Assembly (NCBI GenBank): GCA_020720045.1 | Contig: DYPH01000042.1 | Location: 1 to 41,375 of the forward strand | DNA: 41,375 nucleotides | Origin: Sorangium cellulosum | Lineage (GTDB): Bacteria; Myxococcota_A; Polyangia; Polyangiales; Polyangiaceae | Direction of reading: 5' to 3' | Part shown: positions 9,932 to 32,395 of the stretch, piece after piece | How positions within the stretch are numbered: the stretch's first letter is position 1 | Layout of the letters: every line of letters begins with the position of its first letter | Translations under genes and position numbers: made by a program | The notes under the pieces: model-generated | Database searches by the model: none | Told to the model about the DNA's origin: nothing | What the model saw: the letters and a program-made list of their open reading frames with translations, nothing else

Positions 9932-9960
9932 CAGTTTGGGAAGCGTTTCCGCCTCTCCAC

Positions 9961-12900
9961 TCACTCCTGCCCGATGGCGATTCCAAGGTTCTTGCGGAGC
10001 GCAAGGTAGGGGTCGCTGACCGAGAAGACGATAAGTTCCTTGAGCTTCTCCGACGGCGAGAGGTCGCCGGGGAGTTGGGGCTCGGCGGCAATGATCTTCT
10101 TCGCGATGTCGAGGTCGCCGCAGAGGACGAGACCGGCGCGCGCCGCAGTGACTTCGACCGCCTGGATCCAGCGCTTGAGGTCGGCCTTGGCGCCGTCCTG
10201 GACGAACTTCTGAACGACGACCTTAAGGCCTTCGCGCTGAAGCGGCTGCATGAGCTGGGCGAGCTGCTGGGCGGTTGCAGTGACCGCCTGGGCCATGTCC
10301 GGCGGGACGGCGAAGTCGGGGAGGATCACCTTGATCGCCGAGAAGAGCATCAACTTCAGCTCGGCGAGCGTCGGGAAGAGGTTCTTCATGTAGTGCTCGC
10401 CGCGGTAGGTGGCGAGGTGCTTGCCGACGATGAACGTGAGCTCCTGGGGCGTGAAGCCGGTGAGCACCGTCTGACCAGCGACGGAGGCGGGCGGCGCCGT
10501 CGGGACGGCCACGAGGGCCCCCTGAACGTCGTTGCGGAGGTAGAGGTCGGGCGCCTGGACACCGAGGACCGTCGAAGCCCAGAAGAAGGTCTTCGAGAAG
10601 GTGACGGTGCTCTGGGCCGGGTCCTGCTTCTGGGCCGGATTGAGCGCCGGGAGCTTCCGCTCGGCCTGGAGGCGACGGGTGTTGGCGACAATGACCGCCG
10701 GCGTGATCATTTCGAAGATCTTGCCGATGTAGAGGTTCTCGTCCTTGTGGAAGAGGTTGCGAACCCACTGCTCGTTGTCGAGGCGGTTCTTCACCTGGAC
10801 CATGCCGCGCTGGCGGTACTGCTCAAAGAAGCCACGTTCTTCGTCGTCGGCCTTGCCGAGGAAGGAGAGAGCGGCGCACAGCGTCCAGGCGCGGTCGTAG
10901 TCGTGGATGCGGAGAGCGAGCCGGTAAAGGCTGCGGTACGCATCTTCCTTCATCGGATCCTTTTCGAGGAGCGTGAAGTATTCCGCGCGGGAATTCTCGA
11001 CCTGATCGGTCACTTCATAGAGCTCGGCGAGGATCTGACGCTCGGTCGCATCTTCCGGCTTTTCGCGGGTCGCCATCTTGAACGCTTCAATGGCGCTGTT
11101 CGCGTCCTGAAGGCGGTCGCGGTAGATGAGACCGAGGCCGTGCCAGAGGCTGTACGAGAGGTCGGCGTTCTGGACGTTCGCCGTCGCGAGACGACGGAGC
11201 ATCTTGCGGTACGCGCGTTCGAGCTGCTTCCAATCCTTCGTATCGGTAAGGATTTTGTTGATGCGCTCGAAGGCTTCGAGACGGTTCGGGTTCGCGTCGA
11301 GGGACTCGTTAAAGAGCTCGATGGCGCGGTCGGTGTCGTTGAGCTTGTCGGCGTCGCGGTAGAGCTGCGCCATTGTGAAGAGGAAGATCGCCTTGCGGGC
11401 CGGCTCCTTCTCGATCTCGCTCATTGCCTGAAGAACATCGGCCATAGAGCCCCAGTTCTTGACCTGCGGATAGAGCATCAACAGGCGATTGAGGAGGGGG
11501 AGGTCGCTCGGTTTGAGATCCTTCGCCTCTTCGAGCGCTTCGATCGCCTTGGCGATGTTCTTCTCCGACTTCTCCCAGACATCGGCGATGTCCGAAAGCA
11601 TGTCGAAGCGCTGGTCGCCGTCCATGACGTCGTCGAGGATCATCCGCTTGAAGGCGACGACTTGCTTGAAGTCCTTCGCGTCCGAGTAGATGGCGACGAG
11701 CGCATCGAGGGTCGGGCGGTGGCCCTGGAGGATTTCGAGGGCCTTGTCGAAGTTGGCAATCGCCTGCTTCGGCTGCCCCTGCTCGCGCTTGATCGAACCG
11801 AGCTTGAAGTAGACTTCGGCGCGGGCGTCGGTCTCTTCTTCCCCGAGGGAGGTGAGTACCTTCTGGAAGTTCGTGAGCGCGCTGGCCCAGTCCTTCAGGC
11901 GGAAACTGACCTCGGCAAGACCGCGAATCGTTTCCTGATTCGTGAGATCGAGCTGCTGGGCCGTCTGGTAGGCCTTGAGCGCCCTTTCGTCCTTGCCGAG
12001 GGCTGCGGCGACCTTTCCGAGCTTCGACCAGAGGTCGTGCTGCTCGGCGCGATCGCGCTTGCCGGCCTTGCGGGTGAGGGCGTCGAGGAGCGGCTCGGCC
12101 TTCGCCCACTGTTCCGTCGCGACGTAGTCGGCGACGAGCGGGACGGCGGCGTCTTCATTCTCCACGTCGGCTTCGAGGGCCGATTCCCAAGCAAGAACAG
12201 CACCTTCGTGCTCACCGAGCATCTCCTCGCGGAGACGCCCAAGTTCAACGAGGAGGCGGGCACGCTGGCGGGGGGCCTGCGTGTAGCTCTGCTCCTGGTC
12301 GATGTAGCGGGCCGCCTTGTCGTAGTCGGCGTTGTCCATCGCGATCTGGCGGAGCGCGCCGAGCGTGAGGAGGTGGGCCGGGTCGAGGTCGAGGGCGAGC
12401 TCGTAGCGGTCTTGGGCAGCGACGCGATCGCCGAGCTTCTCGTCGAGGACCTTGCCGATGCGATAGAAGGACTCGACGCGCTGGGCCGGGTCGGGCGTGA
12501 GGTCGGCGACACGCGTCATGAAGTCGACGGCGGAGCTGGCGTCCCCCTGCTTGTCGTAGAGCTTCGAGAGGGCGTCGAGCGCCGGGACGTTCTGGTCGTC
12601 GAGGTCGACGATGTTCCGGTAGGCGTCGATCGCGCGGTCAACGTCGTCGAGCTCGCCGGCGTAAACCTGCGCAATTGAACCGTAAAGCTCAACCTTCGTC
12701 TGGCGCTCAAGCGTCGCCGTGATGTGGCGCTCGTAGGCGTTAATGAGGTCGTGCCACTGGCGGAGGCGACGGTAGTTGCGGGCGAGGGCGACGTAGGCCG
12801 CCTCGTGGTTCGGATCAATGTCGACGACCTGCTCCAAGCGGGCGGCAGCGACATCGGCCTTCACGAAGTGGGTCTCGTGGATCGTCGCGAGCTGCATCAA

Positions 12901-15900
12901 GAGCTCGATGCGTTCGCGTTCGGTCTCGACGACCTCTAGCTCCGCTTCGAGAATCTTAACAAGTTCGCTCCACTGGCCGAGCCCCTCGTAAACGCGGGCG
13001 AGGCCGCGCATGGCGGAGATGCTCGCCGGGTCGATCTCGAGGACCTCCCGGTAGGTCTCGGCGGCGCGGGGGAGCGCCTGCGGGAGTTGCTCGTAGAGCC
13101 CACCGATGCGGAGCTTCGTCTGGGCGATGACCTCGGGCTCGGTGAGCGCGGGGACCTTCGCGACGAGGACTTCGGAGAGCTCGCGGTTCGCGCCGCGCGC
13201 TTCGTAGATCCGCTCGAGATTGGAGAGCGCGGCGAGGAAGTGGGCGTCAATCTTGAGCGCCCGCTGGAAGTAGTCGATCGCCTGATCGGTCTGCCCCATC
13301 CGCCCGTCAAGAAGTTCGCCGAGCTCGGTGAGGACCTCTTTGCGGTCCCCTTCGCTGACGGCGACGTCGAGGGCGCGCTGGAGCGTCGAGCCGTACTGTT
13401 GCCAGTTCGCCCCCTTGCGATAGAGCTGGGCGAGCTGGCGGAAGGCGCCGACATTGTTCGGATCGAGGGTGACGATCTGCGTGTAGTAGGGCTGCGCGTG
13501 CTCGGGGTGACCGAGGTCGTCGCCGTACCACTTGGCGAGGTGGAGGCAGAGGCGGACCTTCCGGGCCGGCTCCTGAGTGGCCTTCAACCAGGCCTGCACC
13601 ATCGTGATGAGCTCGCCCCAGCGACCGGTCGCCTGGGCCATCTTCTCGAGGTATTTCGTCGTCTTCGTGTCGAAGATGTCGATCTCGAGCGCCTGGGAGA
13701 GCGCATCGAAAGCCTGCCCCTTGTCGTCGAGCTTCTCTTCGAAGACGCCGGCGATCTTACGGAGGAGCTCGGTGCGCTCCTTGTCCTCGTCGCGGGTGTC
13801 GAGGCGACCGAGGTAGAGCTCGATGAGCGGCTCCCAGCGGTTGGCTGCGATGTGCAGCTTCTCGAGCTCAGCGAAGGCTTCATCGTGGGCCGCGTCGGCC
13901 TCGATGATCTTCTGCCAGGCATCCGTCGCCTTGTCCGGCTCCTCGAGGGTCTCCGTCCAAAGCATGGCAACGCTTCGGAATTCGGCGATCTTCGCGGCGA
14001 CGTCTTCGAGCGCTTCCGCGCGTTGCATCTTGACGTCGATGACGTCGACGATGCGCTCGTCGGCCCGGTAGATCGCTTCGAGGGCGTCGTAGGCTTCGAA
14101 GTCGGCGCCGGTCTCGAGGAGGTGGCGCCAGGCTTCGGCGGCGTCGAAGGGCTGCTCAAGGGAGCCGCCGTAGGTCTTGCCGAGTTCGCGATAGAGTTCG
14201 CGGAGTTCGCCGCTGTCGATCGTGCCTGCGGCGCGGTCGATGAACTGATGAATCGCGGTGACGAGCTCCTGGGCGTCGGCCTGCCGGCGGCGAATCGCGC
14301 AGATCGCGCGGAGCGCCTCGAGGTTCGCGTAGTCGACGTCGAGGACGCGGGTCCAATCCTCGTAGGCGAGGTCGTCCTGGGTGAGCTTCTCCGTGAACGT
14401 CCGGGCGCGGCGCGCGAGGATTTCGACGCGATCGTCGTCGCTTTCGGCAATGGATGCCTGGCGTTCGAGGATCTCGACGAGGTCGCGGTGACGCTGCTCG
14501 CGTTCGTAGAGGTTCGAAAGGGCGTAGAGCGCTTCCGGATCTTCGCCGCGGAGGTCGAGGACCTGCTTCCAGGTCTCGATGGCGCGGTCGATTTCGCCAA
14601 GGTGGGTCGCGGCGAGGTTGGCGATCCGGGCACGAATTTCCGACTCTTGCGTGTCGCCCGAGGCGTTCTCGAGCTCGCGCAGGTAGACGGTGTCGAGCTC
14701 GCGCCAAGCGCTCTGGCTCTCGTAGATCCGCGCGAGGGCGGCGATCGCCCCTTCGTGGGTCTTGTCGAGTTCGTCGAAGATGCGGCGGTAGGCGCGGATG
14801 GCGTTCGGGATGTCGCCGATTTTGGTCTCGTAGACCTCGCCGAGGCGGGCGAACAACTCAATGAGTTCGTAAGCTTCCGCGGGCGCCTTCGTGCGCATGT
14901 CGAGGATGCCGGCGAGCTCGGGCCACGCTTCCATCGCGAGATAGATGCGATCGAGGTTCGAGAGCGCTTCCTGATCCTGACCGTCGACCGAAAGGACGTA
15001 ACGGTAGGTTTCTTCAGCCTTTTCGACGTCGCCGAGGTCTTCTTCGAAGGTCTTCGCGAGGCGGCGGCCGATCTCCCCTTGGACCTTCACATCGGTGTGG
15101 AGACCGAGGATGTCGGCGTAGGCGTTCGCGAGCGTCTCGAAGCCGGCGTCGATGATGGCGGCGAGGCGCGGGGCCTCTTCGCCGGAGCGCTCGTCGACCG
15201 GGAATTCCTTGAGGGCGCGGACGTAGGTGTCGAGGGTCGTCGGCGCGTCGAGGAGCTTCTCTTCGTGGAGCGCGGCAATGCGGTAGAAGCCGGCGAGGCG
15301 CTCTTCTTGCCCTTCCGTGTGGGCGAGCTGGGCTTCGTGGACGGCGATGAGCTTCGTCCACTGCTCGGCGTCCCGATAGAGGGGCTCGAGGAGGTCGGCG
15401 ACGACCACCGTCTCGATTTTGCGGGCGAAAAGGCTCTCGACCGCTTCGAGGGCGTCGGCGTGGTCGGCCTCGGCTTCGAGGACTTCGCGGTAGGCGGCGA
15501 TTGCGCTGTTCACGTCCTGGAGGCGATGCTCGCGGACCTGACCGAGCCGGTACTTGAAGGTGAGGACGTCGGCCGGATCTTGGCCAATTTCCGCCTCTTT
15601 CGCGAGGATCGTCGCGAGGTCCGACCAGCGTTCCGTCTGCGTGAACAGGCGGTCGAGGCTGCGGACGGCCGACTGGTTCTCGGGCTCCACTTCGAGGACG
15701 CGGCGGTAGCGCGCAATGGCGCTCTCGACGTCTTCGAGCTGGGTTTCGTAGAGCTGAGCAACGCGGAGGCCGAGTTCGACCAGGCGATCCGGGTTCTCGG
15801 CGAGCTTGTCGAGTTCGGCGTCGTAGAGGGCGGTGACCTCCGACCAGCGGCCAAGCGCCATCGCGAGCCGCTCGAGGTTCGAGAGGGTCTGCTCGTTGGC

Positions 15901-18900
15901 GTTGTCGAAGACGATCGCGCGGGCGAAGGTCGCGAAGGCCGACGCGTGGTCAGAGAGCGCGTCCTCGTGGAGGCGGGCGATGCGGTGGAGGAGGTCGACC
16001 TTGGCGAACGGGTCGTCGGCGTGGGCGACCTGCACCTCGTGGACCGAGATGAGTTCGCGCCAAGCGCCCGCCGATTCGTACACCGGCTCGAGCACCGCGG
16101 CGGCGCCGAGCGGGTCCTTCTCGCCCGCCTTGAGCCCCTCAAGGGCGACGAGCGTCGGACCATGATCGGGCTGCTGGCCGAGGATGTCGCGGTAGAGCTC
16201 GACGGAGCGTGCGACGTCTTCGAGGCGCTTCTCGTAGAGTTCGGCGATCCGATACTGGAAGCTGATGCCTTCCTGGGGATCGGCGGTCATCTCGCTCTCG
16301 CGGGTCAAAACGACAAGGAGTTCCTGCCAGTTCTGGGCCTGCTCGTAGAGCACATCGAGCCGCGAAAGCGCCTGGAGGTCGTCCGGGTCGAGCTCGAGGA
16401 TCTTGTTGTAGGTATCGATCGACTGGGGGACGTCGCCGAGCTCGCGCTCGTAGACCGCGCCCACCTGGTAGTAGATCAGCTTCTTCTCTTCCGGATCGGC
16501 GACGAGATCGACCTTCCGCGCGTAAACTTCGAGGAGTTCCGCCCACTTCTTGAGGCCGAGGTAGCGACGGACGAGCGCGTCGAGCGCCTGAACGTCGTCG
16601 GCGTCGATGTCGAGGACCTTCTTGTAGACGGCGATTGCCGCTTCCGGCTGGCCGAGGACGTCTTCCTCGATGGAGGCGGCCTGGAAGAGGGCGTCCTTCT
16701 GCTGGAGCGGCTCGTCGAGCATGCCGCTCTTCCGCTGGAGGACCAGGGAGAGGTCGGCCCAACGCTGGAGGCCCCGGTAGAGGCGCTCGAGGGACTCGGC
16801 GGCGCCGAGGTGGATCGGCGCGATCTCGAGGACCGTGCGGTAAAGGGCGATCGCGGTCTCGGTTTCGCCGAGATCCTGCTCCTGGACGAACGCAGCGCGC
16901 ATGTAGAGCGACGCAGCGAGGTCCGGGTCGGCCCCTTCGACGCCCTGGGTGACGTCTTCGGCGATTTTCGCGCCCCGCGACTGGTAAACCGCAGCGAGGT
17001 CGGCGAAGCGGGCCGTGGTCCGTGCGACGCGGTCGAGCTGGGCAACCGTCTCTTCGCTCGACGGGTCCTCGCGGAGGGCACGGGCGAGCGTCTCGAAGGC
17101 GGCGTCGAAGTCCTGGGCGGCGTCCTCGTGGAGCTGGGCGATGCGGTGAAGGAGTTCCACGCGGCGCGACGGGTCGTCGCTGCGCTTCACCTGAACTTCG
17201 AGGGCGCCGATCAGCTTCTGGTGGTCACCGAGCTGGGTGTAGAAGGGCTCGAGAAGGTCAGCAATAACCAGCTCATAGGCCTCCTGGGTGCCCAAACGCT
17301 CGAGGGCCGAGAAGGCCTGGGCGTTCGAAGCGTCGCGCTCGAGGACGGCGCGGTAGCCTTCGATGGCGACATCAACCTGCGCCATCTCGGTCTCGCGGAG
17401 GGCCGCGAGGCGGAGCATGAGCGCGAGCTGCTCTTCGTCGGTCGCGGCGAGCGAGAGCTGCTTCTCGAGGTTCTCGGCGAGGTCGTTCCAGAGCTTCTGG
17501 CGCGTGAACAGGTCGTCGAGGGACTGGAGCGCGAGGAGGCTCGACGGGTCGATCTCCAGGACTTTGTTGTAAGAAGCGACGGCCGCTTCGAGGCTGCCGA
17601 GCTTCTGGTCGTAGATCGCTGCGATCTGCGCGTAGAGGGTCTCCCCTTCCCCGGCGTCCTGGGACTGCTCGACGCGGCGCTCCTTGACCTTGATGAGGTC
17701 GGTCCAGCGCTCGGTGCGGGTGAAAAGCTGCTCGAGGGCGAAGAGCGCTTCCTGATCGGCGGCGTCGAGGGCGAGGACCTTGTCGTAGGCTGCCGCCGCT
17801 TCGTCAACGAGGCCAAGGCGCTCGTCGTTGATGCGGGCGACGCGCATCCAGAAGAAGCGCGAAAGGTCGGCGTCGGTGCTTTCGGTGGCGATCGCCGCGT
17901 AGAGGGCGACGAGCTCGCTCCACTTGTTCGCGCTCTCGGCGACGACTTCGATTTCGCCACGCGTCTCGGCGAGGGTCGGGTCGAAGCGGAGTGCCGCAGA
18001 AAGTGCAACAAACGCGCGTTCTTTATTGTTGAGCGCATCGCCGGCGACGCGGGCGATCTTGCGCTCGAGGTCGACGCGACGGCCGAGTTCATCGGCGGTT
18101 GCGCTCAGGATTTCGAGGGCCTGAACGAGCTTCGTCCAGTCGCCGCGCTCTTCGTAGATGCTCTCGAGGATCGCGGCCGCTTCGCCGGCGAGCGTCTCGT
18201 GGGCGAGGAGCGCTTCGAGCGCCTCACGGGCGGCGTCGTGACCGCCGTCAACCACCAGGATTTCCCGGTAATTTTCGAGAGCGGCCGGCGCGTCGCCGAG
18301 GTGGAGTTCGAGGGTGCGGCCGAGGCGATACTTGAGGTCGACGAGGACCGTGTCGTTCGCTTCGAGCTCAATCCGCCGACGGAGGGTGTCGGCGTAGGGC
18401 TGCCAGCGTTCGAGGCGCCCATAGAGGACGTCGAGCGCCTGCAAGGAGACGGCATCCTGGGCGTCGTCTTCGAGGACGGCGTTGTAGGTGTCGATCGCCT
18501 TGTCGACGTCTTTGACTTCGTTTTCGAAGAGCTTCGCGATCTCGTACTGGATCCGCTTCTTCTCGTCGGGATCGACGGCAAGATCCCGTTTCCGCTCGTA
18601 AATCTCGAGAAGGTCCCCGAAGCGAGCGACCTGACGGTAAAGGCGCTCAAGGGCCGAGAGGGCGGTGTCGTTCTCGCCATCGACTTCGTAGACGGCGCGG
18701 TACGCGGCGAGAGCGTCGTCGATGCGAGCGACCTCCTCGACGAGCACGCGCCCGAGGCGCAGACGGAGGGCGATCTGGCCGTCCGGGTTCGTCGAGCCGT
18801 CGTCGATCGCCTTGTTGTAGGCGGCGATGACCTGCTCCCAGGAGCCGGTCACCTTGGAGGCGCGCTCAAGATCGGCGGAGGCCTGGTCTTCGAAGGGGCG

Positions 18901-21351: not shown

Positions 21352-21737
21352 GGTTCCTCGGCTGTGGCCTTTCCGCGTCGCGGCCAATCCTCGCGTTCAG
21401 CGCCGCTTCCGCACTCGCTTCGACCGCATTTCGCCTGGGAAAAGAGGCGCTTTGGACGTTAGAGACGGCACCGACCGCGTTGGTGGGGCGCCAAAGTACC
21501 AGAGGCCGTCGGCCAAGTGGGGGGCGATTGCGCAGCCCGATGCGCAAAAACTTGCCCGGCGCAAAATCTCTGCATGCCCCGCCGCGCAAAAGTCTTTTTT
21601 TACAGTAAATTCATCCCACGAGAACCGACGCGCCCCAGCGGACCGCTCTCCGCAACACAAACGAACAAAGGCTGGGCCTGTTCGACCCAACCTTTGACAT
21701 GCGATGCCGGCGCTACGCCGTCACGAAGCGACGACGT
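21352..21737. other. Intergenic region upstream of gltI (386 bases)
   Basis: No credible gene is seen here. It contains a weak terminator-like hairpin near 21667-21695 for the TPR lipoprotein gene, an A/T-rich stretch near 21590-21612 (run of seven T on the plus strand, then TACAGTAAATT) that stands out from the GC-rich background, and the gltI ribosome site. The gltI promoter should lie here, but no convincing -35/-10 pair could be chosen by eye. Confidence 0.6.
21667..21695 (-). terminator. Weak hairpin terminator after TPR lipoprotein gene
   Basis: An imperfect stem AAAGG-C-TGGG / CCCA-A-CCTTT with one mismatch and a nine-base loop, 43 bases past the stop at 21738. Downstream on the minus strand the sequence is only moderately T-rich (GTTCGTTTGT), so efficiency is uncertain. 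Confidence 0.4.
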
Positions 21738-22652
21738 TCAGGGCGTACCGCCCGCCTTCGCCGTCATCTGCTGGGCCTGCTCACACTGGGCCCGGTATCG
21801 CGCCGCCGCACTACCCTTGCAAACGACCTTCTGGAAGGCATTGAGCTGCTGGGTCGCTTCGCTCATCTTGTTCGCTTGGTAGTAGGTCGACCCGAGCGCG
21901 AAGAGCGTGATCGCTTCGCCGCCCTGGTTGCACTGGCCACAGGCCTTCTTCGCCGCTTCGAAGGACGAAATGGAGGCATTGATGTCCCCCTTGCGCTTAA
22001 GCGCGTCGCCGATGACATTGTGCAGCTTGTACATCGACTTGTCGCCCTCCTTGGCCAAGCCGACCCCCTCTTTCGCGACGTTCAAGGCTTCTTCCTTGAA
22101 GCCGAGCTGCGAATAGAGACTCGCAAGTTCAAAGTACCCTTCCGCCGACTCCGGGTGCGCCTTAACGCCCTTGGTGAAGTTGTCGAGGGCCCCCTTTTCA
22201 TCGTCGAGGTGAAGGAGAACGTTCGCAAGTTCAAAGTAGGAATCGGCCAGGTTCGGGTCCTTGGCGATCGCCTCTTCAAGCGGCCCCTTGGCTTCCGACC
22301 AGCTCGTCGGCCCCTTCTCTGCCGCCTTTGCGAGGCAATAGCCCTGGCGGAAGAAGTATTTCCCGTAGGTCGGCGCGAGCTTTGCCGCCTTGCTCATCGA
22401 CGCGGCGCAGTCGGCCCAGCGCTCCTTCTGCTTGTAGATGTCGCTCTCGCGCCAGAGAATCTTGTGGTTCTTCGGGTCGATCTGAGCGGCCTGCTCGTAC
22501 TTGGAGAGCGCCTCGTCGGGCGCGGTGGCCTTCGACTTGTCCCCCTCGTTGGCAAGGTTGATCGCATCGATGGCGTTTCGGCTGCAGCCCGTGGAAACGG
22601 CAACCAATCCGCAGAGAGCGACGAGAAGAGTGCGCGAAGCGACGGTGTTCAT
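21738..22652 (-). CDS. TPR lipoprotein between gltG and gltI
   Basis: 304 residues. The N-terminus has a signal peptide ending in the lipobox STGC (lipidated Cys23), so the protein is exported and membrane-anchored. The rest is a regular array of about six TPR hairpins (A-L-S-K-Y-E-Q-A-A-Q-I-D-P, A-K-G-P-L-E-E-A-I-A-K-D-P, A-L-D-N-F-T-K-G-V-K-A-H-P). Two cysteines sit close together (A-C-G-Q-C) near residue 240, and one further on. It occupies the slot where I recall gltH, an outer-membrane protein gene, in M. xanthus, yet it is clearly a TPR lipoprotein. It may be a lineage-specific scaffold of the machine, comparable in style to Tgl or AglT. A terminator upstream suggests its own promoter. 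Confidence 0.88.
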   Translation of the reverse strand: MNTVASRTLLVALCGLVAVSTGCSRNAIDAINLANEGDKSKATAPDEALSKYEQAAQIDPKNHKILWRESDIYKQKERWADCAASMSKAAKLAPTYGKYFFRQGYCLAKAAEKGPTSWSEAKGPLEEAIAKDPNLADSYFELANVLLHLDDEKGALDNFTKGVKAHPESAEGYFELASLYSQLGFKEEALNVAKEGVGLAKEGDKSMYKLHNVIGDALKRKGDINASISSFEAAKKACGQCNQGGEAITLFALGSTYYQANKMSEATQQLNAFQKVVCKGSAAARYRAQCEQAQQMTAKAGGTP

Positions 22653-22766: not shown

Positions 22767-22790
22767 AGCCCCACTCCGAAGAGTGAGGCT
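22767..22790 (-). terminator. Intrinsic terminator after gltG
   Basis: On the minus strand AGCC-T-CACTC, loop TTCG, GAGTG-G-GGCT, followed by TTT and further T-containing sequence. It lies 32 bases past the gltG stop and separates gltG from the TPR lipoprotein gene. The stem has one internal mismatch and the T tract is short, so it is less certain than the gltI terminator. Confidence 0.65.
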
Positions 22791-22821
22791 CTGGTCCCTT
22801 CGCGGCGAGGCCGCAGTGGGC

Positions 22822-24894
22822 TCAATCGCCGGGGTTGAAGATGATCGGGTAGGTAACGGTAACGATCCCGCCTTCCGGCTGCGGGAAGGAGAGACCGCTG
22901 AAGCCGCGGACGACGCAGCTGACGACCGACTGATCGGCGAGGTCCGAACCACCGTCCGAGGCCGCCGAAACAGCGCCCGAACGGTCGATGATGAACTTCA
23001 CGCCAACGCGCCCCTGAAGGTTCGGGTTCGAACGGAGACCGTTTTCGTAGCAGAGACGGAAACGACCGAAGTTCTGGCGAACGATACGCTGGATGACTTC
23101 CGGCGGGAGACGACCGTTGACGGTCGTGACGCCCTGGCGGACCGTCGGGGCCTTAGCGGTGTGGGCGCCGCCGACCTTGCCGTGTCCGGAGCCGAAACCC
23201 TGGCCGGTACCGGTGCCGGCACCGTGACCGAGCGCGCCCTGGTTGCCGAGGCCGACGCCTTCGCCGCGACCGCCGCCACCTTCGCCGGTGCCGAAGAGGC
23301 CGAGGCCGCCGGCGCCGAAGGAGTCGCCGATGCTGTCGCCGAACATGTTGCCCTGAGCACTGCTCGGGTCGTTTCCGAGGGAATCCTCGCGGCCCCAGGG
23401 TGCGGTCGGCGCATTCGGATCGCCGCCCGCGCCGGTGTTGAGGAGCCCGATCATCCCGAACTCAGCCGCCTCGCGCATCGCTGCCTGGCGCGCAAGGTGG
23501 GGATCCTGGTTGTCCTGCGGACCTTGAACGCCGTAGCGCTTGCCGGTGTCGTTCGAGTTCTGCTTCCCCATCGACCCTTCTTCGCCCTTGGCGCGGGTCC
23601 CGGTGCCGCCTTCTTTGTTGTCGGCTGCGTTGTCGGCTTGCTCTTCCGTCTTCTTCTCTTCCTGCTCGCGTTCCGCTTGCGCGTTGAGCATCTTCTGGAG
23701 ATTCTGAAGCTGGTCGCGGTCGATTTCTTCCGCCGAGTCGCCGCCCATCGGGGGGACGAAGAACGCCATCGCACCAATCACGCCAAAGTGGAGTGCGAAG
23801 GAGAGACCCATGAAGCCGAAAACGGCTGCCGAAACCCCGGCGAGAAAACCGGCAACGGGCGCCTTGCCCGCGTTGCCAGCCGTCAGTTCGAACGCGAGAC
23901 CGCTCTCAAGTTCCTGGCGAACCTTCGCGCCGGGCGGAAGGTCGATCTCGTACGCACCCGGAAGTTCGCTCGAGGAGCGGGCCTTCCCCGACGCAACATA
24001 CTCCTGGAGCGACTGCTTCGGCTGCCCGGGAATTTCCACCGTGCCGCGGGTACGCGGGAGGATGATTGCCGCCGCACCGCCGCCGCGACCGGCAACGATC
24101 GGAACCTGAGCGGCGCCAATGACTTCCTGGGGTACGTAGTACCCAGATGCGGGGGTCTCACCAACGAAGTAGGTCCGCGGCGGCGAGAGGTGCCGCACGT
24201 GGAGGACGTTTGTGTCCCAGAGAACTAGGACCTCGACCGACGCGAGGTCGGCGCGCTCGACTTCCATCGAGTTCAGTTCGGGCCCGCTGCGGACCAGCGA
24301 GTAGGTGAAGGGGAGGTCGGGGTTGAAGTCGCTTCCGCCGGGGGCGTTGACTTCGTGACCGGCCGCCTGCGCCTGCGCAACGAACGGATTTGCTGCGAAC
24401 GGGTTCGAAGCGGCGAACGGGTTCGAAGCGGCAAACGGATTCGAAGCGGCCGCCGGCGCCGCAAACGGGTTCGCAGAAGCGGGGGCACTCGCGGCGAACG
24501 GATTGCTCGCAACTTCCCCCAATCCCTGCTGGGTCGGCGCGGCCGACGGAACCGCGGCGACGACACCGTCGGCGGGGCCGATCGCTTCGAGGATCACAAC
24601 CGTTCCGCCGATCTGAATCTGATCGCCGGCAACGATCTTCGCCTTGGTGATCCGCTTCCCGTTCACGAGCGTCCCCGGCTCAAAGCCGAGGTCGATCAGG
24701 GTGACGTCATCCTCCGCGGCGACCTCGATCATCGCGTGCCGAAGCGCGGCCTGCTCGTCGTCGATGCGGAGGTGCCCGCGCGGGTCCTTCCCGATTTTCA
24801 CCATGTCCTGCGCGAGCGTCTCGCGACGCAGGAGTTGGTCCCCCTGATAGAGGGCGAACGTGAGTGCAGCCTTAGCTTTGCCTTGCGCTTCCAT
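22822..24894 (-). CDS. gltG: GltG (PglI): FHA, transmembrane and TonB-like envelope protein
   Basis: 690 residues. Residues from about 12 to 102 form an N-terminal cytoplasmic FHA fold. A linker at 131-171 carries six NPF motifs. Residues from about 190 to 345 form a further cytoplasmic domain (YYVPQEVIGA, A-G-R-G-G-G-A-A-A-I-I-L-P). One or two hydrophobic segments at about 346-382 cross the inner membrane. An acidic/Lys-rich then very Gly-rich periplasmic linker follows, and residues 590-690 are the AgmX/PglI C-terminal (TonB-like) domain with a conserved Cys pair (FRLCYENG and VVSCVVRG) and the ending YPIIFNPGD. In M. xanthus GltG links the cytoplasmic platform to the outer-membrane module through its TonB-like arm. 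It is the only TonB-like protein here; the zinc-finger/GYF relative GltJ is not in the window. Confidence 0.93.
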   Translation of the reverse strand: MEAQGKAKAALTFALYQGDQLLRRETLAQDMVKIGKDPRGHLRIDDEQAALRHAMIEVAAEDDVTLIDLGFEPGTLVNGKRITKAKIVAGDQIQIGGTVVILEAIGPADGVVAAVPSAAPTQQGLGEVASNPFAASAPASANPFAAPAAASNPFAASNPFAASNPFAANPFVAQAQAAGHEVNAPGGSDFNPDLPFTYSLVRSGPELNSMEVERADLASVEVLVLWDTNVLHVRHLSPPRTYFVGETPASGYYVPQEVIGAAQVPIVAGRGGGAAAIILPRTRGTVEIPGQPKQSLQEYVASGKARSSSELPGAYEIDLPPGAKVRQELESGLAFELTAGNAGKAPVAGFLAGVSAAVFGFMGLSFALHFGVIGAMAFFVPPMGGDSAEEIDRDQLQNLQKMLNAQAEREQEEKKTEEQADNAADNKEGGTGTRAKGEEGSMGKQNSNDTGKRYGVQGPQDNQDPHLARQAAMREAAEFGMIGLLNTGAGGDPNAPTAPWGREDSLGNDPSSAQGNMFGDSIGDSFGAGGLGLFGTGEGGGGRGEGVGLGNQGALGHGAGTGTGQGFGSGHGKVGGAHTAKAPTVRQGVTTVNGRLPPEVIQRIVRQNFGRFRLCYENGLRSNPNLQGRVGVKFIIDRSGAVSAASDGGSDLADQSVVSCVVRGFSGLSFPQPEGGIVTVTYPIIFNPGD
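24382..24504 (-). repeat. NPF-motif repeat in GltG
   Basis: Codes for GltG residues 131-171, with six Asn-Pro-Phe motifs in the pattern [SA]NPFAA. The tightest part is a near-exact 18-base repeat (SNPFAA units) at about 24397-24450. It lies between the FHA domain and the second cytoplasmic domain and is predicted to be disordered. Confidence 0.85.
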
Positions 24895-24968
24895 GGTCTA
24901 CTCCACCGCGGGTCGCGGTTTGCCGCTGCTTGCGGCGTAAACGGAACGGGTCGTGTCCGTCCGAACTC

Positions 24969-25229
24969 TCAGAGGTTTTCGACGGACTTGAGCATTTCCG
25001 GCACGAAGCTCGTGCGCGGACGAATCAGCGTGGTGCGAACCGGACCGGGACGAACGCGAATCGTCGCGTCGTTCGGACCGAAACCACCGGCGGACAACGG
25101 GTCGTCCTTGAACTCGTAGCCGTAATCGCCGCCCTTTTCGTCCTTGCCTCCCGCCTGCGCAAACGCGGAGACGGAGAGCGAGAGCACGGCAAATGCGGCG
25201 AGCGTGGAAACAATCTTCTTCGCGTTCAT
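24969..25229 (-). CDS. Small secreted protein in the gltF position
   Basis: 86 residues from the ATG at 25229, with a strong ribosome site (GGAGG) seven bases upstream. A clear Sec signal peptide (K-K-I-V-S-T-L-A-A-F-A-V-L-S-L-S-V-S-A-F-A, cleavage near residue 24) is followed by about 60 mature residues rich in Gly/Asp and then basic ones (DDPLSAGGFGPNDATIRVRP), ending LKSVENL. No domain is recognised. It sits between gltE and gltG, the place of gltF in M. xanthus, which is the only reason for suggesting GltF. It is first in a transcript with gltG (74-base gap), after a terminator that closes the gltCDE transcript. Confidence 0.75.
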   Translation of the reverse strand: MNAKKIVSTLAAFAVLSLSVSAFAQAGGKDEKGGDYGYEFKDDPLSAGGFGPNDATIRVRPGPVRTTLIRPRTSFVPEMLKSVENL

Positions 25230-25402
25230 GGGGGCCTCCGAGAGGTGGGGCTGCGCAGGGTCGCTGCGGCGGGCGCAGTCTACGAGAAGCGGCGCCCGGT
25301 AGACAGAAAAAAAGTGCGCTTCGAGACGCGTCGGTGACACCCAGGAACGTGGGGGGCTTGGAACGCGCAGCGAAGAAAAAGTTCCCAGGAAAATAGAAAA
25401 AG

Positions 25403-25425
25403 CGCGGCGGGGGTGAACCGCCGCG
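25403..25425 (-). terminator. Strong intrinsic terminator after gltE
   Basis: A perfect eight-base-pair stem CGCGGCGG (25403-25410) / CCGCCGCG (25418-25425) with a seven-base loop. On the minus strand it is followed by CTTTTTCTATTTTCC. It begins 24 bases past the gltE stop and splits the Glt cluster between gltE and the gltF-position gene. Confidence 0.88.
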
Positions 25426-25449
25426 ACTTTCTTTACGGTTTCCCTAGGT

Positions 25450-26901
25450 TCAGCGTGCCGCGAGCGGCATCGGCTGCGAATTCGCGACGGCAAAAAGGCC
25501 CGGGGCGATTTCATCGAGGTTCGGCGAACGGGCCGGGAGCGGCTCGTTGCTCGCAAGGAGGAACGCGATCGTCCCGTCGATGTCTTCCATACGCTCCTTC
25601 GAGCGCTTGACGGCACCGTCGTACTCGGTCTTTCCGGCGGCCTTCTGGATGAAGGTCTCGAAAATCGCCTTGGCTTCCTTGAGCTTGGCAACGGTGGCGT
25701 TCTTGTCGCCGCCCGACTTTGCCTTGTACTCTTGGGTCAGAATGCCCTCGTTGTAAAAGGCGTCCGGTCGGTTCGCGTCGATCTTCTTCGCGGCGTCGAG
25801 TTCCGCTTGAACGGCGGCGACCTGCGTCTCGTAGTTGACGTCAGTGATCTGCCCGCGGAGTGCAAGAGCAAGTCCGAGGTGGGCGTCGTAGTCGCCACTA
25901 CGCATCTTGAGCGCGCGTTCGTAGGCGCCTTGTGCCTGGTCAAACCCTCGGAAAGAAAGGTTAACCGCGGCGTAGTTCATCTGCGCTTCGAAGAGGCGTG
26001 GATCGAGGGTGGCCGCCTGCTTGAACTCGGCGACAGCACCGTTCACAAGACCGAGCTCATTCTGGATGAGTCCTGCGGTGTTGTGAATCGGCGCGTAGCT
26101 CGGGTTCTTTCGGATGGCCTGCGAAGCGACGAGACCGGCGAGTTCGAGCTGCTGGACGTCGGCGCGCTTTCCGAGTGCCGCGTTTGTCGCAATCGAGCGA
26201 CCGCGGCCACCCTTGCTCTTGGTCGCGCCGGCGTTCTTCTTTGCGCGCTGGAAGTAGTAGAGCGCGAGCTGGTTCGAGGCCGGCATGAAGCCGTCGTCGA
26301 TGGCGAGAGCGCGCTGAAGGTTCAACTTCGCGCATTCCTCATCGGTCTTGCAGTTGAATTCTTTGTCTTCCTGGTCGGCGTCGCGCTGCATTTCGAAGGC
26401 GGCGAGAGCAACGAGCGCCGGGACGTTCTGGAACTTCGCGTCGAGCACCGTCTTGCGGAGCGTGTCGATCACGGCGTTTTCGTTCTGGTCGGCCTTGTAT
26501 TGATAAAGGGCGATCTGAACGCGAGCGGGGTGAAACTTCGCGTCGGCGCCGAGCGCCTTTTCGAAGTGAGACTTCGCCTCTTTGTCGTTCCCGCAGCGCT
26601 GCCACGCGAGGCCCGCATCGAAGAGCGCTTCGGGGATCTTGCCCCCTTCCGACCCGGCGTTGAACTTGTCGGCGACATCCTTACAGATGGCGTCGTTCCA
26701 GTCGGCAGCCTTCTCGTGGACGGCGAAGGCGTCGATGGCGACCTGGAAACGATTGACCGTCTCCTGGCTAACCGGCGTTCCGTTCGAAGAGACGGGACCG
26801 TCCGGCTTTTTTGGGACGTTGGCCCCACCGGAATTCGCTCCGCCGCCACAGGCGACGAGTGCCGCGAAAGATCCTGCGATCCAAAGATTGTTGAGCTTCA
26901 T
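25450..26901 (-). CDS. gltE: GltE (AglT): TPR lipoprotein
   Basis: 483 residues from the ATG at 26901, which overlaps the gltD stop by one base (TGATG) and has AAAGGGGG upstream; a GTG at 26904 is possible. The short signal peptide ends in the lipobox LVAC (Cys18) and is followed by a Gly/Asn/Ser-rich stretch, so it is a lipoprotein. The mature part is a TPR array (A-K-S-H-F-E-K-A-L-G-A-D-A, AVAEFKQAATLDPRLFEAQM, A-Q-G-A-Y-E-R-A-L-K-M-R). One internal segment (F-N-C-K-T-D-E-E-C) has two close cysteines that may form a disulfide loop. In M. xanthus AglT/GltE is a TPR component needed for gliding; lipid anchoring plus TPRs fits a scaffold between GltD and the outer-membrane module. Coupling to gltD supports joint assembly. 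Confidence 0.88.
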   Translation of the reverse strand: MKLNNLWIAGSFAALVACGGGANSGGANVPKKPDGPVSSNGTPVSQETVNRFQVAIDAFAVHEKAADWNDAICKDVADKFNAGSEGGKIPEALFDAGLAWQRCGNDKEAKSHFEKALGADAKFHPARVQIALYQYKADQNENAVIDTLRKTVLDAKFQNVPALVALAAFEMQRDADQEDKEFNCKTDEECAKLNLQRALAIDDGFMPASNQLALYYFQRAKKNAGATKSKGGRGRSIATNAALGKRADVQQLELAGLVASQAIRKNPSYAPIHNTAGLIQNELGLVNGAVAEFKQAATLDPRLFEAQMNYAAVNLSFRGFDQAQGAYERALKMRSGDYDAHLGLALALRGQITDVNYETQVAAVQAELDAAKKIDANRPDAFYNEGILTQEYKAKSGGDKNATVAKLKEAKAIFETFIQKAAGKTEYDGAVKRSKERMEDIDGTIAFLLASNEPLPARSPNLDEIAPGLFAVANSQPMPLAAR

Positions 26902-29900
26902 CACCTGCCCCCTTTCTTGGGATCGGCTTTCTTGTCGGTTTTCGAGTCCTTGGGAGCGTCTTTCGGCTCCTCAGCCTTCTCCGGTGCTGCGCTCGGCGGA
27001 TGCCAGAACTGGCCTCCGATAAGGAGCGGGGGATTCTGCTCGTCCAAGGTGCTGTTCACGAGGGTCGGCGCGCCGCGGAGCTCGTCGACGACGTGGTATT
27101 CGCCCTTGTAGTTCTTCGCGAGCCACACTTCGCAGGAGCGCGAATAGTCATCGAAGTACTGGAACTTCACCGAATAGGTGAGGCAGGTCTGGAGGGCCGG
27201 CTTCGCGCGACCGCTCTTGATCGGCTCGCTGGCGCCGTCAAGACCGTCGTAGTAGGCGCCGCGGAGTTCGGCGTCGCTCTTGATATTGCTCGGGATCGGG
27301 GCGGCGCGGAACTCGTCCACGAAGTTACCCCACATGAGACCGACGCGGGAACCAGCAGCGATAACCCACTTCGGGGGCGGCGCCGGCTGGAGGTCGACGA
27401 TCTTCTTGTATTCCGCTTCAGCCTTCTCGATGGCCGGCTTCTTCTTCTCGAGCCAGCCCTTCACCTTCGTGTCGATGTGGGCCTTGACCGACTTCATGTC
27501 GCCGTTGCCGACGTAGATCGGGAACTTGATCTGGTCGACGGTCGCAACCTTCATTTCGTCGGCATTGTAGAAGATCGCTTCGCCGACGGCGTTGAGCGCC
27601 TTGCCGATTGCTTTGTCGGCGTCGCCCGGGTGGGCGGCGCGGATCGCTTCGACAGCCTTCGAACCGTCGCCCCAGATGTTGCGAACCTTGGCGTACTCGT
27701 TCTTCGCGAGCTTATCGCCTTGTGGGATCTTCGCGTAGACGCGGCCGAGGGTCGCGTGCGCCTGCACCTGGATGTCCGGGGAGGCCTTGTCGATCACCGA
27801 CATGTTTCCGGAGAGGTTTTTACGCGCGTTGTCCCAGTCGCCCTTTTCCGCGTAGTGGGCGCCGACCGCGAACGCGATCGAGGCGGTCTGCGACTGCTTG
27901 GAAGCACCGTAGTTCTTGCGGAATTTCTCCGCGTCACGGAGCGCTTCCGCTTCCTGGCCGAGGCCGAGGCGGAGAAGAACGGCGTCGGAGAGGGCGAGGT
28001 CGGCCTTCTCCCCCTTCACGTCGGCTTCGGCGTACTGCTCGTAGTAGTCGGCGGCCTTGTCGTAGACAGCGATCGCCTGGTAGTTACCGCCGATTTCGTA
28101 GATCGCCTTCTTCGCGTAGGGGCTATTCCCCTTCGTGTTGCGGTCGTACTCAATCAGGGCCTTACGCGCACCAATCGACTTCGCAACGAGGCGGGCGGCC
28201 TGATAGGCCTTTGCTGCGTTGTACGCGATTTCATCGCAACGATCCGCGCTTGCCGGCTGGCCGTTCGCGGCCGGATCCTGGCAATTCTTCTTGAACATGT
28301 CCATGTAGGACACGCCGGCCTCTTCGTAGAGCGAAAGCGCCTTGGTGCTGGAAAGCGTCGCCGCTTCCTTCACTTTGGCTTCCGCGCCGAGACGCTGGAG
28401 GTTGACTTGAACCTTCGCGAGTTCGGTGCAGCTCTCGGCGTTCTTCGTCGCCTTGTCGCCCTTGCAGTAGAGGTCGATGAACTTGGGGACGTCCTGCGCC
28501 ATGTCGGCAAAACAGGAAGAACGTGTCGGATTCCCGTGGGTTCCGAGGACGTTGATGCTTTCCATGTAGAGCATCGCCGCGTAAATGCCGGACTCCTGAT
28601 CGGCGTTGTTAAGCGCGATGTCGCGGAAACCGACGGCCGCTTCTTCCCAATGCTGCGCCTCGAAGTACGTACGCGAACGGGCATACTTCACTTCGACAAG
28701 TTTGCTCATGCCATCGGCGTCGCCGTTCGAAGGCTTGATGTAGCAGGTGAAGCGGTTGAAGGCCTGGACCATCCCCTTTTGGGATTCGGTCATGTCCTTC
28801 GGCTTCAACTTGCTGTCGATGTCTTCGTCGTCCTTCTTCTTGTCGTCCTTCTTGGCGCCGGGCCCGTTGCCGGAACCTTTGCGAGCGAGCTCCTTGGGGT
28901 GCGTCTTCTCGTAAATGTTCTGGTAGCAAAGGACGGCCGCGTAGGCCGCTTCCGGGGCTTCAGGGCCGGTCGGGTTCTCGGCGACGACCGAATCAAAGGC
29001 AGGACCGCACTTCTCCCAATCGTTCTGGAAGTAGAGCAAGTCGGCCATCGCATACTTGATCTTGTAGATCGACGGCCAGTCCTCACGCGTGATGCGCGGG
29101 AACTCGAAGTTCTTGAATTCGTCCTGGGTCCACGTGTCGACGATCTTCTTATAGACCGCCGCCGCGAGCGCCATCGCCTTCGGATCGTTCGTGCCGCGCT
29201 TGCCGCCGCTACCGACCGCCTCGAGGTGCCACGACATCGCCGTTTCGGTTTCGAGCGCCGCCGTCTTGGAGGCACACTCACTCTTCGAAGCCGGCGAATG
29301 ATTTCCTGCCTTGAACTCGCTGTACGCCTTCAGCTGAGCATCGAGCTCATTCTTGATGACGTCCTTCTTGTTCGCATTGAGCGCCATGACCGCTTCGGTG
29401 ATGTGCGCCTGGTAGCTGCAGGACTGATCGCTCCCTTTGTTGCGGACCAAGAGGTCCTTGTACAGGGCAATCGCGTCGTTGTAGTGACCGGTGTCCAGGT
29501 AATTCTGGCCAAGGTCATCCATCATCTTGTACGTCTTCTCGGTCTGACCGGGCGCGTCGCCAGAGATGTTCTTGAAGAACGTAAATGCGGCGTTCGGCTG
29601 CCCCTGGAGGGCGTAGACCGGGATGATGTCGCGGCGGGCCGCGTCGGCCAGCTTGGCCGCATTCGGCTGCTGTGCGAACTTCACGCCGTGATCAATCGTC
29701 TTCTTGAAGGCATCGAGGGACTTCTCAAACGCCCCCGTATTCCAATGAACGTAAGCAAGCTTGTACCAGGCGTAGCCCCAAACCTTCGTCGAGTCTTCCG
29801 GATACGTCGTGACCTTTTCGTAGGCCTGGCGTGCAGTATCCCACTTCGACGGATCGCCCTGCGCTTCATTAAAGAAGAGCTCGCCGAACGCAAGATAGGC

Positions 29901-30617
29901 GTTCGGAATGTACTTAGAGTCGGGGCGCTTGTTGATCAGCTCGTAGTAGGCGGTACGGGCATTCCCGTAGTCGTTCGCCTGCTCGTACTCGTAGGCGAGA
30001 TAGTAGAGAATCTCGTCAAGCTGCGCGTAGTTCGGATAGTCGTTCTTCAGGCTTGAATAGTAATTGATTGCGTTCTGGCGGGCCGTCTTGAGGACCTTCC
30101 CGGACGCATCGACCAATGCCTGCTTCTTGCCCGCTTCCGCCGGATTCGACTTCTTCAGCGCGTCGCGATCGATTTCCGCCTGGGTCTTGTTGCGGAAAGC
30201 AACGTTCTCGAGCTCGACGTAGTCTTCCGCGAGGCGACGCATAATCTGCGCGCGGTCGGAAGCGCCCTTGCCAGTCGCCTTGTAGAGCGCTTCGAGGCGG
30301 CCAATTTCATCGACAAGGAGCGCCTGCGCACGGTTGGCGAGGCGGCTCTTGCGGTCGTCGCGCTCGGCGGCCCCCTGCTCGAAGCCCGGGTTCGTCGGCT
30401 TTCCGTCCTTCTTCTTCGCCTCGACGGGGGCAACGCCCCCCATCTTCATTTCCGGCGCCTTTCCGTTGGAGCTCTTGAACTCCTTCGGGCCGTCGTTCGG
30501 GCAGGCGGTAAGCGTCTTTTGGGCCGCGTCGCTGATGCAAGCGAGCCCTTCTGCAGCCGCGGGGGCGGCGGCGCCGAGCACGAGCACGGCGCTCATGTAC
30601 TTCAATAGCGGTTTCAT
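26901..30617 (-). CDS. gltD: GltD (AgmU): large periplasmic TPR protein
   Basis: 1,238 residues from the ATG at 30617, six bases after the upstream stop with GAAGGTG ahead; a GTG at 30626 is possible. A Sec signal peptide (M-K-P-L-L-K-Y-M-S-A-V-L-V-L-G-A-A-A-P-A-A-A, cleavage near residue 22) makes it periplasmic. The chain is mostly degenerate TPR helices (Y-E-L-I-N-K-R-P, A-Y-L-A-F-G-E-L-F-F-N, A-L-Y-K-D-L-L-V-R-N). A Lys/Asp-rich insert occurs near residues 575-600, and the C-terminus is a Lys/Glu/Asp-rich tail of about 35 residues. Length and architecture match AgmU/GltD of M. xanthus, a periplasmic component that co-localises with moving adhesion sites. It lies between a gltC-like gene and gltE, all closely spaced or overlapping, so these three form one transcript. 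Confidence 0.9.
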   Translation of the reverse strand: MKPLLKYMSAVLVLGAAAPAAAEGLACISDAAQKTLTACPNDGPKEFKSSNGKAPEMKMGGVAPVEAKKKDGKPTNPGFEQGAAERDDRKSRLANRAQALLVDEIGRLEALYKATGKGASDRAQIMRRLAEDYVELENVAFRNKTQAEIDRDALKKSNPAEAGKKQALVDASGKVLKTARQNAINYYSSLKNDYPNYAQLDEILYYLAYEYEQANDYGNARTAYYELINKRPDSKYIPNAYLAFGELFFNEAQGDPSKWDTARQAYEKVTTYPEDSTKVWGYAWYKLAYVHWNTGAFEKSLDAFKKTIDHGVKFAQQPNAAKLADAARRDIIPVYALQGQPNAAFTFFKNISGDAPGQTEKTYKMMDDLGQNYLDTGHYNDAIALYKDLLVRNKGSDQSCSYQAHITEAVMALNANKKDVIKNELDAQLKAYSEFKAGNHSPASKSECASKTAALETETAMSWHLEAVGSGGKRGTNDPKAMALAAAVYKKIVDTWTQDEFKNFEFPRITREDWPSIYKIKYAMADLLYFQNDWEKCGPAFDSVVAENPTGPEAPEAAYAAVLCYQNIYEKTHPKELARKGSGNGPGAKKDDKKKDDEDIDSKLKPKDMTESQKGMVQAFNRFTCYIKPSNGDADGMSKLVEVKYARSRTYFEAQHWEEAAVGFRDIALNNADQESGIYAAMLYMESINVLGTHGNPTRSSCFADMAQDVPKFIDLYCKGDKATKNAESCTELAKVQVNLQRLGAEAKVKEAATLSSTKALSLYEEAGVSYMDMFKKNCQDPAANGQPASADRCDEIAYNAAKAYQAARLVAKSIGARKALIEYDRNTKGNSPYAKKAIYEIGGNYQAIAVYDKAADYYEQYAEADVKGEKADLALSDAVLLRLGLGQEAEALRDAEKFRKNYGASKQSQTASIAFAVGAHYAEKGDWDNARKNLSGNMSVIDKASPDIQVQAHATLGRVYAKIPQGDKLAKNEYAKVRNIWGDGSKAVEAIRAAHPGDADKAIGKALNAVGEAIFYNADEMKVATVDQIKFPIYVGNGDMKSVKAHIDTKVKGWLEKKKPAIEKAEAEYKKIVDLQPAPPPKWVIAAGSRVGLMWGNFVDEFRAAPIPSNIKSDAELRGAYYDGLDGASEPIKSGRAKPALQTCLTYSVKFQYFDDYSRSCEVWLAKNYKGEYHVVDELRGAPTLVNSTLDEQNPPLLIGGQFWHPPSAAPEKAEEPKDAPKDSKTDKKADPKKGGR

Positions 30618-30622
30618 GCTGT

Positions 30623-32395
30623 TCACCTTCCGCAGCGGCTCGTGATCGTCTGCCGATAGAAGCCGAGCTCATCGCGCCAGTACTCGCCCTTGAAGGGCCA
30701 GATGACGTGTTCTTCGTCCGCTTTGACGATGTTGCGCTCCGATTCCTTGGCCGTAACTTGCGCGCCTGCGATCGCAGCGTCGAGCTGGTTACGCTGGGCG
30801 GCAGTGATGTCGATCAGGATCTTCGCGCTGTTGCGAAGGTGCTCGGAAAGTTCATCGATATTGCGCTGATAACGCTCTTTCGCCAGGGCGCCCGCGTTCT
30901 TCACCGCGATGTCGCGGGCGAGGGAAAGCGCGTCCTTCGTGTCGAGACCAAGGGCCGACCCCTTGAACTCGGCGGTCGCCTTGTCGAAACGCTTCTGCTC
31001 TTCGTCGAGCAATTCGACGTACTTAATGTGACGGAGGAGCTGACGATCGCTGAGCGCGTTCTTGACGACCGTCTTGGTCAGGTCGCCCTTCTTGTCGAGC
31101 TGCTTCGCCTTGCTGTCGCGGACGTCCTTGAGGAAGCCGTAGAAGGCCTCTTCCTGGTTATCGCCTTTGAAGCCGTTCAGAATGCCGTTCAATTCGTCGG
31201 AAAGCGGCTGGTATTTCTGCTGGAACTTCGAGACGATCGTCGTCGAATCGTCGTACTGGCAGTTCGAGAAGTAGATGACCGCTTTGAGAACTTCCGCTTC
31301 CGGGTAATAGGAGTTCGGGAAGTAGGGTGATTGAATCGTGTGAATATTCCCGAGGGCGTGGGAGTAGTCACCGGCCATGAAGTAGGCCCAAGATTCCTCA
31401 AAGAGTGCGTCGAGCCAGTACTCGCTTCCGACATCGACGGTGTTCCAGTACTTCACCGCGGCGCTGAGGCGATCCTCAAGGATCTTCGGGGTGTTGTTCT
31501 CGTCGAGCGTAACGGAGGCCGAATAATAGGTACGCGCCATCGAGAGGAAGGCGAGGTCGCGCATACGCGTCTCGTCTTCGACGTCTGCACCGTCGTCAAT
31601 CGACGAAACGATCGACTGGAAGGCCTTCACCGCGGGGACCGAACGCCGAAGCTGAACGTGAGAAATGCCGGTAAAGAACTGGCTTTTCACGAACCATTTC
31701 GACTGCTTGGCAACCTTGCCAAACAGCTTGATTGCGTCGTCGTACTGGCGATTCCGGTACTTGTAGCGGCCGAGCAGGTAGTTGAGCTGCCAGTACAAGT
31801 CGCGCTGGTTTGCGTTGTTGAACTTGGCAATCTGGCCTTCGTCGTACTTACCGACGCGCTCAACGATGTCCGCCGGCTCCGGGAGCTCCGTCGCGAGACG
31901 CGCAAGCCAGAGGAGGGTTTCGTTGAACTTCAGGTGGTTCGGCTTGTCGGCAATTTCCGAGAAGATCCCGTAGGCCGCCTGGTAAAACTTGAGGTGATAC
32001 AGGGAGATCGCCAGATGGTACTGGGCGAGCTGCTTGTTCCCTTCGTCGTCGTTCGTCTCCCCTTTTTGAACTTTGGAGAGACCGAGCGCCGCCTTTTCCC
32101 ACTTTTCCTGGTCGAAATCGCGCTTCGCCTTCGCCGCTTCCGGCGTCATTTGGCCTGCGGTCGGAGGGGGACCGAGATCGGGCTTCGCCGCCGGTTGCCC
32201 GTTAGGGGCGGCGTCAATGTCGATCGGTTTCGCCGCACCGCCGGTTCCGGCTGCGGCGCCGGTCCCCGGCTGCGTGGTCGGCGGCTTTTTTCCGCCCGCC
32301 TTTTTCCCTTGGGCGTGGGCCTCATGGGTCGAAAGCGACAGCGTGAGGAGGGCCGGGGTTGCGGCCAGCAGGAACGATCGCACGATTTTTCGCAT
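30623..32395 (-). CDS. gltC: GltC-like periplasmic TPR protein
   Basis: 590 residues from the ATG at 32395; the longer frame to 32452 would bury the signal peptide. The signal peptide ends A-H-A (cleavage near residue 28). Residues 30-80 are disordered, Gly/Pro/Ala/Lys-rich and contain PIDIDAAP (57-64). The rest is TPR-like (F-D-Q-E-K-W-E-K-A-A-L-G-L, FYQAAYGIFSEIA, Y-D-D-A-I-K-L-F-G-K-V-A). GltC of M. xanthus is a periplasmic TPR protein paired with the GltA/GltB barrels. In M. xanthus I recall it in a separate cluster, whereas here it starts the gltD-gltE transcript. The gltC name rests on architecture and context and is less certain than gltD/E/G/I. Confidence 0.8.
   Translation of the reverse strand: MRKIVRSFLLAATPALLTLSLSTHEAHAQGKKAGGKKPPTTQPGTGAAAGTGGAAKPIDIDAAPNGQPAAKPDLGPPPTAGQMTPEAAKAKRDFDQEKWEKAALGLSKVQKGETNDDEGNKQLAQYHLAISLYHLKFYQAAYGIFSEIADKPNHLKFNETLLWLARLATELPEPADIVERVGKYDEGQIAKFNNANQRDLYWQLNYLLGRYKYRNRQYDDAIKLFGKVAKQSKWFVKSQFFTGISHVQLRRSVPAVKAFQSIVSSIDDGADVEDETRMRDLAFLSMARTYYSASVTLDENNTPKILEDRLSAAVKYWNTVDVGSEYWLDALFEESWAYFMAGDYSHALGNIHTIQSPYFPNSYYPEAEVLKAVIYFSNCQYDDSTTIVSKFQQKYQPLSDELNGILNGFKGDNQEEAFYGFLKDVRDSKAKQLDKKGDLTKTVVKNALSDRQLLRHIKYVELLDEEQKRFDKATAEFKGSALGLDTKDALSLARDIAVKNAGALAKERYQRNIDELSEHLRNSAKILIDITAAQRNQLDAAIAGAQVTAKESERNIVKADEEHVIWPFKGEYWRDELGFYRQTITSRCGR

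Follow-up and report, generated by a model that had tools for sequence, protein, structure and literature searches.

The window analysed here is a 41,375-bp stretch of Sorangium cellulosum DNA (contig DYPH01000042.1), which coincides with the entire contig C36 of a 6.34-Mb genome in 357 contigs. Between positions 9961 and 32395, all on the minus strand, it carries seven genes in the order gltC-gltD-gltE-gltF-gltG-(tetratricopeptide repeat (TPR) lipoprotein)-gltI (Table 1). We consider it likely that the window holds the chief structural locus of a proton-driven trans-envelope machine of the Agl-Glt type, in a myxobacterium of the class Polyangia, and that its gene order is the usual one in the phylum. 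An earlier note, made from the sequence alone, had pointed to this same-strand run and to a Glt-type machine. Gene calls and profile matches showed that all seven genes are real and have these coordinates, with a 4-bp overlap at gltC/gltD and again at gltD/gltE, and the proposed assignment to C, D, E, F, G and I was borne out by NCBIfam matches, by position and by the C-terminal domain of GltI. For the GltD-like protein NCBIfam has no dedicated model, and the CglF match of the GltF-like protein is weak alone (E = 0.0033); homologues of the latter occupy the same place in relatives. The Glt-type character of the machine was upheld by the GltD tests and by the presence of GltI, GltJ and a GltK-like protein in the genome, as described below.

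In a model drawn from Myxococcus xanthus (PMC3169522, PMC3858216, PMC4488436, PMC13104615), an inner-membrane motor of AglRQS type, driven by protons, would pull on GltG (and GltJ), with the giant TPR protein GltI serving as a cytoplasmic scaffold. The force would cross the periplasm via the TPR proteins GltC, GltD and GltE together with GltF; the GltK/CglC lipoprotein would help the GltA/GltB barrels to insert into the outer membrane, and the barrels would carry force or surface polymer outside, giving gliding or surface transport. By analogy, gliding may be expected in this organism.

Gene order across the phylum

Of 191 genomes searched in the phylum, 150 had a GltD match, and the order gltC-D-E-F-G-TPR lipoprotein-gltI was seen in most families of Polyangia and in Bradymonadia. 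Since the same run recurs in the same order in tens of genomes, it is not due to chance. In 93 of the 100 testable loci (those with room for gltC, from 111 non-identical loci), gltC immediately precedes gltD, and gltG, the TPR lipoprotein gene and gltI follow one another in 53 of 72 loci, although these counts are not population frequencies, the locus sample having been chosen partly by GltD patterns. Three of the seven exceptions to the gltC-gltD adjacency come from Archangium (L256 and L258) and Myxococcus (L262), and the other four (L065, L099, L212 and L253) are from other relatives or are second copies. Beyond gltC, ftsY followed by two barrels was present in 13 of the 14 Polyangia relatives checked.

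The order in the window is thus the ordinary state of the phylum and probably the ancestral one, and the layout of M. xanthus, where gltC, gltA, gltB and gltK form a cluster apart, is a derived state, so that its two clusters turn from the reference into the exception. The earlier note had regarded the window as an unusual partition newly showing a former linkage of the two M. xanthus modules, with gltC fused into the gltDE operon. This part did not stand. The order is common in the phylum, the direction of the proposed change was wrong because the Myxococcaceae moved gltC away, and the linkage is not new, as it had already been deduced in 2011 and 2013. An ancestral cluster was proposed by Luciano 2011 (PMC3169522), who found G1 and G2 homologues together in Anaeromyxobacter and the core genes clustered in gammaproteobacteria and Geobacter; according to Wartel 2013 (PMC3858216), nfsA-H form a single cluster with the same synteny. 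Whether later lineages swapped single parts (TPR lipoprotein for GltH) while the Myxococcaceae broke the locus up is a scenario to which we give about even chances.

Compared with Glt (G1, gltD-J; G2, gltK-B-A-C) and AglRQS of M. xanthus, the window shares homologues of C, D, E, F, G and I and a GltK-like protein, with gltK divergent, and the list of parts is alike in having A/B-like barrels, here near the locus, and GltJ and Agl-type motors, here in trans. The arrangement is different: gltC and gltK stand with gltD-I, the barrels stand by ftsY, gltJ is away from gltI, and an extra TPR lipoprotein occupies the place of gltH, with no GltH found. In Anaeromyxobacter oryzisoli (L261) the joined state is also present, a single contig carrying K, the barrels, C, D, E, F, G and I, with G1 and G2 grouped, but this species has GltH (CglE) in place of the TPR lipoprotein, and its barrels come directly before gltC. 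The Nfs cluster of M. xanthus (nfsA-H) shares the C-D-E-F-G order, whereas it has no GltI, GltJ or GltK and its GltD forms a separate clade. The core complex of Geobacter and gammaproteobacteria (gltD-E-G-C and aglRQS) shares the linkage of gltC to gltD, gltE and gltG but has the motor genes inside the cluster and is missing the Myxococcota-specific parts (PMC3169522).

Relationship to the Glt and Nfs machines

For phylogenetic analysis, Myxococcia clusters were sorted by the NCBIfam models: those with GltG and GltC above the cut-off were regarded as true Glt, and the barrels-C-D-E-F-G loci L298, L300 and L347 were taken as Nfs. In the trees of GltD, GltG and GltC, the window sequences were placed in a Polyangia clade, inside their own family and outside both Glt and Nfs, with the long Nfs branches lowering the certainty of the trees. 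The approximately unbiased (AU) test rejected a clade of Polyangia and Nfs for GltD (P = 1.2e-8), whereas the same clade was not rejected for GltC (P = 0.098). Hence the grouping of GltD, GltE and GltG inside the Nfs clade, which the earlier note had named as the case against its proposal, did not come true, as GltD does not group with Nfs.

Several results weigh against the Glt-type reading. An exclusive clade of Polyangia and Glt was rejected too, both for GltD (P = 1.9e-4) and for GltC (P = 2.6e-4), so that by the trees alone the window proteins are related to both Glt and Nfs and are not one-to-one Glt orthologues. All matches were below the curated cut-offs of the NCBIfam equivalog models, which fit Myxococcus-type proteins (scores against cut-offs in bits: GltC, 300/450; GltE, 56/225; GltG, 305/650; GltJ, 122/450), and no match to the GltH/CglE model NF033755 was found in the genome; GltH/CglE is also reported to be missing from the glider Bdellovibrio (PMC3169522). 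Myxococcia proteins exceed the cut-off for GltG and GltC; a search of the phylum and one other class returned no genome with GltG above it, and the Myxococcia proteins were supplied by named records. The simplest reading of the trees would be that the lineage of the window branched off before the Glt/Nfs duplication or close to it.

The Polyangiales include known gliders, and this speaks against the most probable of the alternatives, namely a machine from before the split with a general role in the surface transport of polysaccharide or proteins, gliding having been specialised later in the Myxococcia. We think it unlikely. In its favour, the trees place the Polyangia outside both clades, GltH was not found, and the core complex also occurs in bacteria not known to glide (PMC3169522). 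On the other side, GltI, GltJ, GltK and GltA/B, which the 2011 scenario adds on the way to gliding, are all present.

An Nfs-type machine, transporting spore coat or surface polymer rather than transducing force for gliding, appears improbable. The C-D-E-F-G order of the single nfsA-H cluster is that of the window (PMC3858216), barrels precede nfsC in Archangium, and GltC leaves the clade with Nfs unrejected; however, GltD rejects it, and on the gliding GltC model the window protein scored about 299-300 bits, above the 226-230 bits of the Nfs-type proteins of Archangium and Myxococcus. Gene content decides for a Glt-like machine, because GltI, GltJ and a GltK-like protein are present, none of which has a counterpart in the Nfs machine (PMC3858216), and no GltK-like gene was found at three Nfs-type loci.

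GltI, the GltK-like lipoprotein and the TPR lipoprotein

Since TPR arrays match one another non-specifically, TPR matches say little about the identity of the 3,796-aa protein, and its non-TPR end was therefore compared. The last 88 aligned residues matched, collinearly, the C-terminus of GltI of Myxococcus sp. MY1 (blastp, E = 2e-10), a 4,104-aa open frame whose neighbours in L297 are GltG, GltH and GltJ. The non-TPR C-terminal domain, approximately the last 280 residues (9961-10806, minus strand), was conserved in 26 of 26 proteins compared, which are encoded beside gltG. That the protein belongs to an unrelated giant TPR family, the other case that the earlier note had set against itself, is therefore very improbable in spite of the promiscuity of the repeats, the domain being common to the window protein and Myxococcus GltI.

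Folded alone, the domain gave a confident AlphaFold model (pLDDT, 93.6). Foldseek returned nothing at E <= 0.001 (best, 0.17), the weak leading rows being Ste24, BepA, BlaR1 and selecase, and with the 420-aa end of GltI it picked up TPR repeats only. The leading rows of VIA-align were metallopeptidases (top Z, 8.3; root-mean-square deviation, 7.9; 186 aligned), and the HExxH zinc motif was absent from all 26 domains. As a lead and not a result, the predicted fold suggests that the tail of GltI might be a dead M48/Ste24-like domain. Opposite gltI, a 2,791-aa open frame extends on the plus strand (13087-21462), most likely as a by-product of high GC in the third codon positions.

Directly beside gltC, and divergent from it, is a lipoprotein gene (32815-33423) that the earlier note had overlooked and whose product, on sequence comparison, is a remote homologue of GltK/CglC. 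Iterated jackhmmer searches with this protein recruited homologues that adjoin gltC in Polyangia, Bradymonadia and Anaeromyxobacter; the Anaeromyxobacter homologue (4.7e-7; 1e-12 in a looser run) is CglC by NCBIfam (2.5e-36), and the looser run also added CglC of Archangium (5.6e-8). In the reverse direction, a Polyangia member (L079) matched the CglC model NF033754 at 7e-4. The bridging sequences are needed because the direct profile comparison with two CglC sequences by hhalign was only marginal (E = 0.003; shuffles were as good in 2 of 100 local and 0 of 100 global alignments). The NF033754 model gave no direct match in the genome itself, a result that counts for little because the search was also silent on its controls. 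The gene is placed and oriented like cglC of M. xanthus, which is divergent from gltBAC (PMC4488436), and in Bradymonadia the GltK-like gene has the same direction as gltC. Since the GltK-like family now extends over three classes (Polyangia, Bradymonadia and Myxococcia), GltK would be older than in the 2011 scenario.

The TPR lipoprotein between gltG and gltI (21738-22652) stands where Myxococcia have gltH/cglE and has the same place in Polyangia and Bradymonadia; no counterpart of it was found in Myxococcus. Neither this lipoprotein nor a peptidase-like tail of GltI is described in the Glt literature cited here.

Barrels, GltJ, motors and neighbouring genes

The barrel pair adjoins ftsY about 7 kb away from the run and lies at the end of the contig, as the window and C36 are identical. 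The earlier note had placed barrels next to ftsY, and their GltB/GltA-like character was supported by TIGR04565 and by family profiles. The family profile of the first barrel gave GltB proteins 75-87 bits (Archangium GltA also scored 77), and that of the second favoured GltA (44-70 bits) over GltB (19-29 bits).

The suggestion that gltJ and the AglRQS motor were elsewhere or absent can be replaced, since both are present. GltJ is encoded on contig C191 (NF033761, 3.8e-35) and has a GYF domain, a zinc ribbon and an AgmX C-terminal domain. Contig C31 (L054, G000:C31:22000-41710; 7564-12147) carries two complete Agl-type motor sets, back to back and divergent, each with one ExbB-like and two ExbD-like genes and each having a distinct partner set in Myxococcus, Archangium and Anaeromyxobacter. 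In the motor tree both sets were placed in a clade of their own with their Myxococcia partners (support, 100), apart from the TolQ/ExbB types, with which the remaining two ExbB-like genes of the genome group. Protein lengths and the position of the membrane Asp point to C31b rather than C31a as AglRQS proper, an assignment that is not firm.

Further copies were seen in the same genome. A second, divergent Glt-like core set (L344, G000:C182:50000-69900; 4421-14987) comprises a GltC-like protein (814-aa frame), a GltD-like protein (1,441-aa frame), a GltE-like protein and a protein with an AgmX tail. A lone GltG-like protein is encoded in L052 (G000:C2; 8175-9920), where its match starts past the FHA part of the model and no other glt genes were recognised beside it.

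Table 1. Features of the window at and around the glt run
Feature	Position	Strand	Evidence
N-acetylmuramoyl-L-alanine amidase with AMIN domain, conserved neighbour	5784..8258	-	Pfam
FHA + sigma-54 activator following gltI; conserved neighbour rather than a machine part	8448..10091	-	Pfam
gltI (agmK) orthologue, cytoplasmic TPR protein, 3,796 aa	9961..21351	-	Place after gltG and shared C-terminal domain
TPR lipoprotein, 304 aa, between gltG and gltI	21738..22652	-	TPR matches and lipobox
gltG, 690 aa: FHA, transmembrane, AgmX/PglI (TonB-like) C-terminal domain	22822..24894	-	NF033760 1.4e-90, NF033768 2e-24, FHA, tree
gltF/cglF-like small secreted protein, 88 aa	24969..25235	-	NCBIfam CglF E 0.0033, nearly full model length
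gltE-like TPR lipoprotein	25450..26904	-	NF033758 3.3e-15 and position
gltD (agmU) orthologue, periplasmic TPR protein, 1,238-1,241 aa	26901..30626	-	Phylum matches, tree, AU tests
gltC (agnA) orthologue, periplasmic TPR protein, 590 aa	30623..32395	-	NF033756 5e-89, tree
gltK/cglC (agmO)-like Cys-rich lipoprotein	32815..33423	+	Divergent from gltC; jackhmmer chain to CglC
GltB-like outer-membrane beta-barrel	39227..40300	+	TIGR04565 7.8e-32; family profile
GltA-like outer-membrane beta-barrel, start probably ~40297-40312	40204..41193	+	TIGR04565 3.7e-13; family profile

Promoter and terminator scans gave results near chance. Between gltK and ftsY (33819-37531), and conserved within the order, lie genes for a HEAT-repeat protein, a large exported protein and a predicted membrane protein that weakly matches sensor kinases and chemoreceptors. 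After gltI, the FHA/sigma-54 activator and the amidase also follow in two other genomes of the family to which the window belongs.

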